From positions 1 through 20,322 of IMG/VR virus record IMGVR_UViG_3300033150_000799: a stretch of DNA of 20,322 nt, one strand, 5' to 3'. The notes beneath the pieces were generated by a model, which saw only the letters and a program-made list of their open reading frames with translations, did not search any database and was not told the DNA's origin. The stretch comes from a virus. Below are positions 1 through 5,018 of this stretch, piece after piece (position 1 is the first letter of the stretch; every line of letters starts with the position of its first letter). The translations under genes were made by a program, and so were the position numbers.

Positions 1-456
1 GACAAGTGGGCCGTCCGCGGGAGCCGGGCCGGTCTCTTCGCCCCGCGAGGCCAGACCCCCGAGCCGCCCCTCGTCATCGTCGAGGGCCCGACCGACACCG
101 CGGCCGTCGCCGACCTCGGCCTCACCGTCATCGGTCGCCCGTCCTGCAACGGCGGCGTCGATCACCTGGTCGAGGTCTGCTACCGCGTGCCCCGGAAATG
201 GAAGAGCGACTGGTACGAGATCGTCATCCTCGCCGACCGCGACACTGCCAAGACGGGCCCCGACGGCCAGCCGTTTCACCCCGGCCTCGACGGCGCCCGC
301 CGCCTCGCCGAGGAACTCGCCGCCATCGGCCGCCCGGCCCGGCTCTTGCAGCCACCCCGCGGCACGAAAGACGCCCGCGACTGGATCACCCGTAACGGCC
401 TCACCCGTGACGCCCTGCTCGCCAACATCGCCCAAGCCGACTATTGGAGACCCTGA
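1..456 (+). CDS. TOPRIM-domain primase/helicase, C-terminal part (5' truncated)
   Basis: The reading frame is open from the first base and ends at TGA 454-456, leaving about 151 residues. It carries the two TOPRIM signatures: VIVEGPTD with the acidic Glu near residue 28 of the fragment, and LADRD with Asp near residues 79 and 81, followed by a Gly/Ala helix (GARRLAEEL). In phage primases and primase-helicases these residues bind the catalytic metals used for RNA primer synthesis. The tail contains KDARDW, a usual closing element of such domains. The N-terminal zinc finger or primase catalytic part, and any helicase part, lie outside the window, so primase, primase-helicase and other TOPRIM proteins cannot be told apart. 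The next gene begins 4 bases after the stop, which fits a replication operon. Confidence 0.8.
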   Translation, partial: DKWAVRGSRAGLFAPRGQTPEPPLVIVEGPTDTAAVADLGLTVIGRPSCNGGVDHLVEVCYRVPRKWKSDWYEIVILADRDTAKTGPDGQPFHPGLDGARRLAEELAAIGRPARLLQPPRGTKDARDWITRNGLTRDALLANIAQADYWRP

Positions 457-811: not shown

Positions 812-881
812 CTGTCCGCAAAATGTCCACATCGCATGCGGACAGAACGCGGACGCCTGCCGGACAAAATGCGGACCACAG
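812..881 (+). repeat. Iteron-like array of GCGGACA heptamers at 11-bp spacing
   Basis: Six copies of a heptamer close to GCGGACA fall on exact 11-base spacing in each orientation. Minus-oriented copies read TGTCCGC at 813 and TGTCCAC at 824. Plus-oriented copies are at 838 (GCGGACA), 849 (GCGGACG), 860 (CCGGACA) and 871 (GCGGACC). The outer minus copy and the first plus copy make a 9-bp inverted repeat, 812-820 with 837-845. One helical turn per copy puts the sites on one face of the DNA, as in replication-origin iterons or cooperative operators. The array starts right after the stop of the replication O/DnaD-like gene. No protein start with a good ribosome site needs this stretch: the RusA gene is best started at 950. 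Confidence 0.7.
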
Positions 882-901
882 TACAGTACAGGACAGGACT
901 G
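877..901 (+). repeat. Short tandem pentamer repeat (NACAG)
   Basis: Five consecutive 5-base units read CACAG, TACAG, TACAG, GACAG, GACTG. The tract begins within the last iteron and lies between the array and the RusA gene. It may be part of the same origin or regulatory region, or simple slippage; nothing else supports a role. Confidence 0.5.
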
Positions 902-949
902 AAAGGCTTACGAGTAAGGAAGAAGTGGACTGCGGAAAGGAGCCCTGAC

Positions 950-1321
950 TTGACCCCTGCCTATGAGATCACCCTGAGATGGCCGCCCCGCCAACTGAAC
1001 CCCAACGCCCGGCCTCACCACATGGCCCTGAACCGGGCCCGCCAGGAATACAAGGAACTTGCCTACCTGACCACCCTCAGCGCTGTAGGCCGCGACCGCC
1101 CACTCAACTGGCCGACGGTCCGCTGCCGCGCCACGTTCTACTGCCCCGACCGCCGGCGCCGCGACCGCGACAACCTCGCCGCCATGCTCAAGCCCGCCTG
1201 GGACGGCATCGCCCTCGCCATCGGCATCGACGATGGCCGTTTCATCCACGAGCCCGTGCGGAAGGAACTCGACCGCGACGATCCCCGCGTCGAGATCACC
1301 ATCTACCGGGAGGAACGGTGA
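950..1321 (+). CDS. rusA: RusA-family Holliday junction resolvase
   Basis: A 123-residue protein, usual size for RusA. RusA enzymes are dimeric, metal-dependent endonucleases that cut four-way junctions and process phage recombination and replication intermediates before packaging. The start is taken as TTG 950, which has GGAAAGGAG just upstream (934-942) and gives the typical RusA opening (TPAYEITLRWPP then LNPNARPH). An in-frame ATG at 836 would add 38 low-quality residues reading across the iterons. Catalytic acidic residues are visible as D72 and D74 in RDRDNL and D94/D95 in GIDDGRF, with a Lys at 81 between them, matching the spacing of the E. coli RusA triad. The TGA overlaps the next gene's GTG start. 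Confidence 0.85.
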   Translation: MTPAYEITLRWPPRQLNPNARPHHMALNRARQEYKELAYLTTLSAVGRDRPLNWPTVRCRATFYCPDRRRRDRDNLAAMLKPAWDGIALAIGIDDGRFIHEPVRKELDRDDPRVEITIYREER

Positions 1322-2141: not shown

Positions 2142-2324
2142 ATGAAGGCGTGTGCCGCGAAAGGTCGCCCACCCGACGCATACCGCCACCCGCAAGGATC
2201 GGTCGCCAGAGAGCCGCACAGGGGCCTTAAAGGTACTACCAATGGCCCCCGCCAGCGCGAGCGGAAAGGGAACACCCGCGCGGTTACACAGACTTGCTTG
2301 CAGCCGAAAAAGGGGCCGAAATGA
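2142..2324 (+). CDS. Weak small ORF, basic 60-residue product
   Basis: ATG 2142 is preceded by GGGAGAG and the TGA (2322-2324) overlaps the next gene's ATG (2321) as ATGA, the usual junction in this operon. The product is short, strongly basic and low in hydrophobic residues, begins MKACAAKGRPP, and resembles nothing I recognise. Codon third positions do not show the strong G/C preference of neighbouring genes, which argues against coding. The surrounding 2070-2320 spacer holds nothing else I can support: no tRNA arm, terminator or promoter is convincing. Confidence 0.25.
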   Translation: MKACAAKGRPPDAYRHPQGSVAREPHRGLKGTTNGPRQRERKGNTRAVTQTCLQPKKGPK

Positions 2325-3001
2325 CAGGCCGACCTCAATCCCAGCCTGCGAAAGGGGCTAATACCATCGCCCGCCAGGGCCCGGAGTCCGGCTTCAGCGT
2401 GGAATGGCGTCCCATCGGCGACATCATCCCCTATGAGAACAACCCCCGGCTCAATGACGGCGCCGCCGAGGCCGTCGCCGCGAGCATACGCCAATTCGGC
2501 TGGCGACAGCCTATCGTCGTGGACGGCGACGGCGTGATCATCGCCGGACACACCCGCCTCAAGGCCGCCCAACACCTCGGCCTCGCCACGGTCCCCGTCC
2601 ACGAGGCCGACTTGACACCGGCCCAGGCCAAAGCCTACCGGCTCGCCGACAATCGGACCGGCGACCTTGCCGACTGGATACCCCAGGCCCTCGAAGCCGA
2701 GATGATCGCCCTCATCGCCACCAGCGAAGGCCTCGACCTCGAGGCCCTCGCCCTGCCGATCACCGACGGTCCCGAGCCCGAGCCGGAGGATACCGGCGAC
2801 GGCCAAGGCGGTGGCCGGCCCACCGACGATTCAGGTGCCGGAACCGAAGTGCTCCGCGTCACGTTCTCCGCGACCGGCTGGGATACCATCACCCGAGCCC
2901 TCAAGAAGGCTGTCGAGGCCGGACCGTTCCCCGAGACCGGCAACACGAACCGCCAAGGCAACGCCCTTGCCCGGATCTGCGAGACATACTATGCGGATTG
3001 A
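2321..3001 (+). CDS. ParB/Srx-fold protein, copy 1
   Basis: A 226-residue protein. Residues 27-115 are the ParB N-terminal (ParB/sulfiredoxin) fold: the opening IIPYENNPR near 35-43, the helix AAEAVAASIRQFGWRQPIV, the GHTR box at 76-79, and the YRLADNRTGDLADW end. In phages this fold is found in nucleases, CTP/ATP-dependent DNA-binding proteins and partners of DNA-modifying enzymes. After an acidic Gly/Pro-rich linker (about 145-170), a second small C-terminal domain (LRVTFSATGWDTI..., residues ~173-226) follows. Both domains recur in the next gene, so the two are tandem paralogues. Its last 11 bases overlap that gene. With Mom immediately downstream, a role in guiding or supporting DNA hypermodification is inferred, not shown. 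Confidence 0.85.
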   Translation: MTGRPQSQPAKGANTIARQGPESGFSVEWRPIGDIIPYENNPRLNDGAAEAVAASIRQFGWRQPIVVDGDGVIIAGHTRLKAAQHLGLATVPVHEADLTPAQAKAYRLADNRTGDLADWIPQALEAEMIALIATSEGLDLEALALPITDGPEPEPEDTGDGQGGGRPTDDSGAGTEVLRVTFSATGWDTITRALKKAVEAGPFPETGNTNRQGNALARICETYYAD

Positions 3002-3602
3002 ATACCGCGACCCCCGCGAGATCAGGCCGTACCACCACAATCCGCGGACCCAAGACCAGGCCGTGGAGGCTGTGGCAGCGTCCATCGCCAAGTACGGCTT
3101 CCGCCAGCCCATCGTCACCGACGCCGAGGGCGTTATCATCGTCGGCCACGCCCGCCACGCCGCCGCCCTGCGCCTCGACCTGGATACTGTACCCGTCCAC
3201 GTCGCCGCCGACCTCACCCGCAGCCAGGTACGCGCCTACCGCCTCGCCGACAACGCCACCCGCGACCTCGCCGAGTGGGACAACGAGGCCCTCATCGCCG
3301 AAATCCTCGCCCTCGACCCCGACGGCGAGGCCATCCCCGGATTCACCTCCGAGGACATCGACGCCTTGCTCGCCGCTGGCGAGGAACCGGACTATGACGA
3401 GTGGGACGTCGCCCTCGACGGCCTCTCGGACGGCGAACCCCAGGCCCGCCGGGCAACCTTCACCCTGACACCGGCTCAGCGGGCCCTTGTCCAGGCCACC
3501 GCCGAACGTGCCCAGCCGCACGTGCCCAAGGGCCATGGCGAACCCAACGCCGACGCCGCGGCCCTTGTGCACATCGCCCGCTGCTACCTGGGGGAGGCAT
3601 GA
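2991..3602 (+). CDS. ParB/Srx-fold protein, copy 2 (tandem paralogue)
   Basis: A 203-residue protein starting at ATG 2991 inside the end of copy 1. The ParB fold begins at once (IEYRDPREIRPYHHNPR), with the AVEAVAASIAKYGFRQPIV helix, the GHAR box at 52-55 and YRLADNATRDLAEW. The C-terminal domain (RATFTLTPAQRALVQ...ALVHIARCYLGEA) matches the C-terminal domain of copy 1 in layout (RVTF, then a closing LARICETYY/LVHIARCYL helix). Compared with copy 1 it lacks the N-terminal 25-residue extension and has a different acidic linker. Two diverged copies side by side suggest a heterodimer or separate specificities, which is inference. The TGA overlaps the Mom start as ATGA. Confidence 0.85.
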   Translation: MRIEYRDPREIRPYHHNPRTQDQAVEAVAASIAKYGFRQPIVTDAEGVIIVGHARHAAALRLDLDTVPVHVAADLTRSQVRAYRLADNATRDLAEWDNEALIAEILALDPDGEAIPGFTSEDIDALLAAGEEPDYDEWDVALDGLSDGEPQARRATFTLTPAQRALVQATAERAQPHVPKGHGEPNADAAALVHIARCYLGEA

Positions 3603-4411: not shown

Positions 4412-5018
4412 TGACGACTTCCTGATCGACGACATCCTCACCAACAACAACGAGAATCTCGAGACCGAATACCGCCCGAAGGCCCGAGCCCACAAGATCA
4501 GCGCCCGCCAGCGATACGAGCGGATCCTCGCGCAGCAGGCCCTCGCCGAGGTAGTGCCCGAGGCCCCTGCTGCCGGCGAGTCGATCCACGTGCTGAGCGA
4601 CGCGCGGTTCGATTTCTGGACGTGGGTCCCACAGATGGCGGACTGGCTACCCGGAGCCGTCACCCTCTACTGCTCGACCTGGACCGTCAGCCGCCAGAAC
4701 GTCGTGGAACTATTCAGCCTTTGGGACCGCGGCAAGTTTCGCGACGTGGCGTTCCTCACCGGCCTCTACTTCAAACGCCGCGAGTCAGCCGTCTACGCGA
4801 CTCTCCTCCAGGGCCTCCGCGACCGAGGCGGTCGCTATCGCTGCAGCCCGAACCACACGAAGGTGCTGCTGCTCGCCGACGATGCCGGCAACTACCTCAC
4901 GTGCGAGGGTTCGGCCAACCTCACCAGCAACCCCCGCCTCGAACAGTACGTCATTACAAACGACCGCAGCCTGTACGAGTTTCACCGCGAGTGGATGGAG
5001 GAACTACTGGCCCGATGA
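4401..5018 (+). CDS. Phospholipase D-like (HKD) domain protein
   Basis: A 205-residue protein starting at ATG 4401, with GAGG at 4391; the frame overlaps the end of the Mom gene by 11 bases. The C-terminal half shows a single PLD-superfamily motif: H152-T-K154, a hydrophobic strand, D160, and GSAN at 170-173, followed by NLTSNPR, as in PLD-like nucleases and lipases. The spacing between Lys and Asp is one longer than the classic HxKx4D. The N-terminal 40 residues are acidic then basic and look like a flexible tail. Single-HKD proteins usually act as dimers on phosphodiesters, often DNA. Placement beside ParB-fold and Mom genes suggests a DNA-processing or defence-related job, but that is inference. 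The TGA overlaps the next ATG. Confidence 0.7.
   Translation: MPTDDDFLIDDILTNNNENLETEYRPKARAHKISARQRYERILAQQALAEVVPEAPAAGESIHVLSDARFDFWTWVPQMADWLPGAVTLYCSTWTVSRQNVVELFSLWDRGKFRDVAFLTGLYFKRRESAVYATLLQGLRDRGGRYRCSPNHTKVLLLADDAGNYLTCEGSANLTSNPRLEQYVITNDRSLYEFHREWMEELLAR

Follow-up and report, generated by a model that had tools for sequence, protein, structure and literature searches.

Most tailed phages have no mapped replication origin, and the well-studied epsilon15 and Rac have none marked in their records at the position considered here. The locus described below raises the question of whether a cluster of short repeats directly behind a putative replication gene is such an origin or a protein-binding site of another kind. 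It lies in a 20,322-nucleotide stretch of viral DNA (IMG/VR record IMGVR_UViG_3300033150_000799, positions 1 to 20,322), which we refer to as the window. A first-pass annotation had reported six copies of GCGGACA in two orientations at 11-bp spacing. Direct inspection recovered all of the positions and orientations, in the order << >>>> with 11-bp steps within each group; exactness did not survive, as only the copies at 813 (-) and 838 (+) are exact and each of the remaining four has one mismatch. The 9-bp inverted repeat that was said to join the two groups is present and perfect (Table 1).

Taken by itself, the heptamer GCGGACA shows no enrichment in the window (6 exact matches compared with 5.25 expected). 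Its exact frequency is uninformative, and what is unusual is the ordering of the copies. Any four-copy heptamer ladder with 11-bp steps (at least 6 of 7 identical positions) occurred in 1 of 300 dinucleotide shuffles of the whole window, and the ladder together with two inverted copies at the same step occurred in none of the 300; an independent run gave 1 in 150. The first-pass annotation had stated that it would be refuted if such arrays were common in shuffled sequence, and this refutation fails. The iteron array is real and far above chance expectation.

Table 1. Coordinates of the features of the locus, in positions of the window
Feature	Positions	Strand	Details
Primase, 3' part (Toprim_3; DNA primase/helicase family), upstream neighbour	1-456	+	Pfam Toprim_3, E 8e-6; phrog_239, E 2e-7
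Initiator DNA-binding domain gene, 116 aa	461-811	+	phrog_2509 'replication initiation protein', E 8e-35, aligned 4-115/277
Codons of C-terminal basic helix	743-805	+	Residues 95-115; R100, D104, R107, K108; helix co-varies with iteron type
Perfect 9-bp inverted repeat linking both iteron groups	812-845 (span)		812-820 CTGTCCGCA; 837-845 TGCGGACAG
Iteron 1	813-819	-	GCGGACA, exact
Iteron 2	824-830	-	GTGGACA, 6/7
Iteron 3	838-844	+	GCGGACA, exact; start-to-start offset from iteron 2 is 14, as in L007
Iteron 4	849-855	+	GCGGACG, 6/7
Iteron 5	860-866	+	CCGGACA, 6/7
Iteron 6	871-877	+	GCGGACC, 6/7; pentamer tract abuts directly
A+T-richest 60-mer of the window, candidate duplex-opening region	867-926		53% versus 33%
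Pentamer tract	878-899	+	ACAGT (twice), ACAGG (twice), AC; lag-5 self-match 0.89; proposed unwinding or single-strand loading element
RusA-like Holliday junction resolvase, downstream neighbour	950-1321	+	phrog_34, E 1e-18

Although that description of the array was borne out, it missed the second half of the locus, namely a 5-bp repeat that starts immediately after the last heptamer and the A+T-richest 60-mer of the window. One of the most purine-rich 60-mers of the window is also located here, at 883. The tract is nearly identical in the window and in its homologues L002 and L003, though much of the surrounding sequence has diverged.

The product of the gene in front of the array (461-811) corresponds to only the N-terminal part of the 277-position phrog_2509 family, and the C-terminal helicase-recruiting module is absent. 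An AlphaFold2 model (pLDDT 87) predicts a winged-helix-like arrangement followed by a long basic C-terminal helix (residues 95-115). The product has no Pfam family at E 0.1, no Pfam match to the lambda O family and no sequence match in the PDB, and 42 relatives have no Pfam match except a probably spurious one to CpeS. The best Foldseek match reaches only E 0.12, and VIA-align returned weak matches (Z up to 4.8) that include winged-helix chains. These searches place the domain no more precisely than 'winged-helix-like'; the earlier label 'O/DnaD-like' is right in kind, without a Pfam match to an O or DnaD family behind it.

The order of primase and then initiator is shared with the homologue L003. 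No helicase loader was identified in the window fragment, which has the primase upstream and RusA downstream; DnaC-like neighbours are present in the relatives L049, L302 and L304-L306. The rusA gene probably starts at the TTG at 950, judging from AAAGGAG upstream, and the array and tract are therefore probably intergenic; translation of the array from the ATG at 836 is not excluded, the frame from 812 being open into rusA. The initiator frame, broken only by the TGA at 809-811, continues open through the array into rusA in the same phase (809-1321). Two tandem ParB-like genes lie further along (2294-3001 and about 2998-3602), and a similar place in L003 is taken by a fusion of a ParB-like domain with a DNA methyltransferase-like protein.

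We scanned IMG/VR for three exact copies of the heptamer with the query GCGGACA-N3-TGCGGACA-N3-TGCGGACA and found 44 sites with the 11-bp period, compared with 1 for the heptamers at 10 bp and 14 at 12 bp. Of the 44 period-11 ladders, 25 fall within a homologue of the gene 461-811 or at its edge, and two further loci (L039 and L043) have the initiator domain about 5 kb off, at the same locus. None of the 15 ladders with periods of 10 or 12 bp has the domain, and by this comparison the 11-bp period is specific. In fourteen stretches (L058-L071), GCGGACA recurs at exact 12-bp steps in the absence of an initiator domain, and several of them encode in-frame NAD/SADT repeats.

Partition (centromere) sites can likewise consist of short-spaced repeats, and a site of this type, bound by ParB or a ribbon-helix-helix protein, would fit with the two ParB_N-domain genes at 2294-3602 and with one marine family in which the ladder is in a short gene with a ribbon-helix-helix-like N-terminus. 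We regard this as scarcely credible: the first of the ParB-like proteins (2294-3001) matches phage ParB-like nuclease/methyltransferase families (phrog_620 and phrog_498), and in most loci with a nameable family the array follows an initiator.

The association of array and initiator was examined in 247 homologous domains, reduced to 49 representatives with less than 80% identity. In the 90 bp behind the domain of 48 divergent loci, self-similarity compared with shuffles is strongest at lag 11 (z = 43; 38 of 48 loci), followed by lag 5 (z = 30), lag 12 (z = 21), lag 10 (z = 20) and lag 15 (z = 15); the region 300 bp further on from the domain is flat in these loci. Lag 11 is also in excess within the 5' part of the domain, which is explained by a second, in-domain iteron cluster that many genes have, those of the Rac and epsilon15 type among them. 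The order of elements is constant (divergent iterons, an AC[C/T](T) junction and a tandem tract, usually of AGAGA repeats), with a fixed geometry of << 13-14 bp >> and a fixed junction in which AC[C/T](T) is followed directly by AGAGA; the layout of L007, << 14 bp >>>, matches that of the window. Three types of iteron predominate: TGTCCGC(A), GTAACGC and GTCACGC. The array is at the 3' edge of the initiator domain in most homologues and recurs in other initiator families; no clear array was seen at this edge in L272, L275 and L276.

Relatives were sought with the sub-alignments A2 and A3, as an alignment of 14 sequences was too divergent for this purpose. Family searches around bacterial relatives yielded few distant loci, which were useful, and a search for more members of the clade of the window returned only L002 and L003 again. 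Whole iteron clusters lie within the coding sequence of the DNA-binding domain in L013 (844-883), L026 (7524-7563), L029 (2262-2301) and L050 (1542-1584); those in L013, L026 and L029 are insertions of about 11-13 residues in the domain, and L026 has matching clusters both inside and behind it. In L028 (992-1471), the TGCGGACA ladder with 11-bp steps is contained in a short gene that encodes a ribbon-helix-helix-like N-terminus and immediately precedes a DnaB-like helicase gene, an arrangement also found in L008, L010, L014, L024, L033, L034, L036 and L038. Loci of this type have the same iteron as the window and apparently a different DNA-binding domain.

The positions of the arrays bear on the other role proposed in the first-pass annotation, which had left the choice between a replication origin and a cooperative operator. 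As an operator, the array would be bound by the initiator or a repressor that represses the rusA operon or the initiator's own gene, and replication would start elsewhere. Initiators often autoregulate, the helical spacing of the iterons suits cooperative repressors, and L021 has extra iteron copies upstream of the initiator start. However, most arrays occupy the interior or the end of the initiator's coding domain and not a promoter, the Rac- and epsilon15-type genes have their second cluster within the domain, and the fixed junction ties the arrays to a pentamer tract that an operator does not need. An operator in place of an origin is therefore quite improbable; as an additional role it is not excluded.

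A tract with a period of 5 or 6 bp (self-match of at least 0.83) was detected behind the initiator domain in 34 of 62 loci, whereas the same criterion was met in 0 of 62 within the domain, in 1 of 62 at +300 and in 0 of 620 shuffles. Tracts of like period differ in sequence (ACAGG, AGAGT/AGACC, ACCTA and the 6-bp GCCAGA). In the pentamer A-n-A-n-n, the two adenines are the most conserved positions (A1, 94%; A3, 96%), with only the phase chosen; an earlier regular expression for the junction fixed A at tract positions 1 and 3, and its values of 100% are true by construction. These adenines place a TnnT on the complementary strand in every repeat.

A search that used the tract alone led back to the same genes. 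With only the canonical 22-mer AGAGAAGAGAAGAGAAGAGAAG as the query in IMG/VR, which gives a sample, the matches listed comprise 114 non-redundant sites, 85 of which are directly behind the initiator domain; 91 of these 114 listed sites have the domain or one of the three iteron types, and 73 have the exact junction. Several of the remaining sites are in other initiator families (Lin1244_N, phrog_270 and phrog_9327), often with 11-bp repeats of their own.

The C-terminal modules of the relatives include DnaT (PF17948; L050 and L053) and Phg_2220_C (PF09524; L266), and one tract is common to different N-terminal families that are joined to these modules or to none. This pattern would also fit a tract that, without the iterons, is a recombination seam: phages would swap helicase-recruiting C-terminal modules at this short stretch of common sequence, which would have no part in opening DNA. 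We consider this unlikely, as the tract is kept in loci whose initiator has no C-terminal module that could be exchanged (the window, L002, L003 and L247), array and tract are detached from the gene in L039, and tracts that share the period and not the sequence would be of no use for homologous exchange.

Most relatives translate the array and tract, which form a linker between the N- and C-terminal modules. This raises the possibility that the DNA repeats are merely the by-product of selection for a charged, flexible peptide (CPQNVRTSAD, REEKRREEK). The 11-bp repeat is out of frame, so that successive copies encode different residues, and the base sequence of the iterons tracks the DNA-binding helix. 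Moreover, the initiator open reading frame stops before the array in the window, L002, L003 and L247, and in L039 and its kin the array and a tract of ACAGG repeats are intergenic and about 5 kb away from the initiator; in L039, the flanking genes are terminase-like and integrase-like. Such untranslated copies largely refute the peptide-linker explanation, which we rejected as having only a very small chance of being correct; they indicate that selection acts on the DNA. About 100 bp from the first array, L039 has a second intergenic cluster of about ten GCGGAC copies in mixed orientation (4730-4845).

To what extent does the initiator match its iterons? The iteron types of 42 classified representatives are told apart best by a set of alignment columns that includes residues 108, 104, 50/51 and 100. 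Residues 50/51 are partly encoded by the in-domain iteron cluster; residues 100, 104 and 108 are not, and they share a face of the C-terminal helix (i, i+4, i+8). In all 42 training loci, Lys108 occurs with TGTCCGC and GTCACGC, and other residues, mostly Val, occur with GTAACGC. A tree built without the helix requires six parsimony changes of each trait (iteron class and residue 108); strongly supported branches that separate iteron classes provide only two independent contrasts, compared with 6 on the best tree. An informative contrast is that between the window and L002 and L003, its nearest relatives, with R100/D104/K108 accompanying TGTCCGC versus K/S/Q and E/A/M accompanying GTAAC.

The correspondence held out of sample, in 60 new non-redundant loci with at most 80% identity to the training set. 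Lys108 occurs with GTC-type iterons in 23 of 23 classified loci and Val108 with GTAACGC in 12 of 12, and all 17 TGTCCGC loci have R100, D/E104, R107 and K108, as does the window. Two loci combine TGTCCCG with Lys107, and three combine TGTAGAC with Lys104/Gln108; Gln108 by itself is ambiguous, as it occurs with more than one iteron type. Some iteron class labels were set by inspection (L013 and L003). Across the loci compared, iteron type (TGTCCGC, GTAACGC, GTCACGC and others) tracks residues 100, 104, 107 and 108 of the basic helix.

We conclude that the element is very probably the replication origin of this phage, at which the initiator would bind the iterons, the adjacent tract would open and a helicase or primase would be loaded. 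This reading rests on the return of initiator genes by DNA-only searches (25 of 44 with the 11-bp period, and none of 15 with 10 or 12 bp) and by the tract alone, on the initiator family match, on the co-variation of helix and iteron, on the other families that have the tract and on the location of the top A+T 60-mer at the array. The origin role that the first-pass annotation had inferred is thus strongly supported by comparison (initiator family, recurrence, 11-bp specificity and helix co-variation), without any experiment. Counting against it are the lack, in the initiator of the window, of the C-terminal module of most relatives and the absence of replication, binding or opening data. GC skew in three complete genomes is mixed and not decisive: minima near the array in epsilon15 and MW202710, which coincide with a switch in transcription direction, have no counterpart in CP2.

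The array, its geometry and association with an initiator, the tract with its fixed junction and the helix-iteron co-variation are visible in the comparison; binding, opening, loading and the start of synthesis are inferred from it. Subunits of the initiator may each bind one heptamer, read by the C-terminal basic helix, and the 11-bp step would place neighbouring subunits on one face of the DNA, able to contact each other. The resulting nucleoprotein complex would strain the duplex such that the adjacent strand-asymmetric, A+T-richer pentamer tract opens, and one exposed strand would take the replicative helicase or primase. In most relatives, loading may proceed through the exchangeable C-terminal module (DnaT-type, Phg_2220_C-type or others). 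As its initiator has no such module, the phage of the window probably relies on a primase-helicase of its own, whose gene lies just upstream.

Lambda is the textbook case of iterons and an AT-rich tract inside an initiator gene. The window has an initiator with an N-terminal DNA-binding domain, direct-repeat iterons beside its gene and an adjacent A+T-rich, strand-asymmetric region, as in the lambda origin, where such elements are in or beside the initiator gene. However, lambda has four longer iterons, each of which binds an O dimer, whereas here 7-8-bp heptamers one helical turn apart form a divergent array, followed at a fixed junction by a 5-6-bp tandem tract. In lambda, O binds single-stranded DNA of the tract, two iterons and the AT-rich region are enough for unwinding, and the extra iterons of Stx phages are simply translated, adding 13 residues to O (PMC7466680). 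In-gene origins are also indicated for SPP1 and 80alpha, and 80alpha ORF20 cannot be complemented in trans, which suggests that the origin is inside the gene (PMC5499656). Whereas the origin is embedded in SPP1 gene 38 and 80alpha ORF20, the array of the window is behind a gene reduced to the DNA-binding domain, and its iteron sequence and tract differ from theirs; L303 has an SPP1 gp38-like gene as a neighbour.

Short single-stranded repeats beside initiator boxes are known from bacterial oriC as DnaA-trios, and repeats also occur in Vibrio cholerae ori2 (PMC10797057); Bacillus subtilis DnaD needs pairs of 5'-TnnT-3' on one single strand (PMC10201434). The phage tract resembles these elements as a short-period, strand-asymmetric tandem repeat that abuts initiator boxes, with the inference that it, too, is read as single-stranded DNA. 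Unlike DnaA-trios, its period is 5 (or 6) and not 3, and a phage initiator stands in place of DnaA; the parallel between the TnnT of its complementary strand and the DnaD motif remains a hypothesis by analogy. Initiators of RepA_N and iteron plasmids similarly place a winged-helix-type N-terminal domain on repeated sites, and a Rep-DNA chain (5kbj, Z 4.0) is among the weak structural matches; there is no sequence match to the domain of the window, and such matches are common to many winged-helix proteins.

The design of iterons in or beside the initiator gene is therefore already known (lambda O, SPP1 and 80alpha). The literature searched contains no description of this array or tract, with the limitation that few subscription papers were covered and that, for example, Weigel and Seitz (2006), on phage replication modules, may list some of the repeats. 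As far as that literature goes, the new features are the divergent array with one heptamer per turn, the constant junction that links iterons to a 5-6-bp tract in many initiator families, and the correspondence of helix and iteron. If the origin reading is correct, one DNA signature would point to the origin in the genomes of many phages and prophages, and the range of origins open to a given initiator could be predicted from its helix residues; the unusual 'CPQNVRT' and 'REEKRREEK' peptides of phage replication proteins would be translated origin DNA. The tract would also pose a testable question, namely by what means a small initiator that has no AAA+ motor opens DNA and picks a strand.

In Paenibacillus, Faecalibacterium, Roseburia, Microcystis and Synechococcus phages, distant initiators come with the same order of elements, in which the iterons are their own and the tract has a period of 5 or 6 bp, and several of these loci have DnaC-, DnaB-, SSB- or SPP1-gp38-like neighbours. 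It is possible, although we would not yet favour it, that a two-part origin of helically phased iterons, a fixed junction and a 5-6-bp single-strand loading tract is a general grammar of many distantly related or unrelated tailed-phage initiators. The tract would then be the phage counterpart of the DnaA-trio/DnaD element, iterons would be predictable from four helix residues, and origins and compatibility groups could be read from genomes. Eight loci with phrog_270-like initiators (L311, L329, L342, L348, L399, L409, L421 and L426) have no obvious 11-bp iterons; their canonical AGAGA tract follows a conserved gttaggat/gctagcat.
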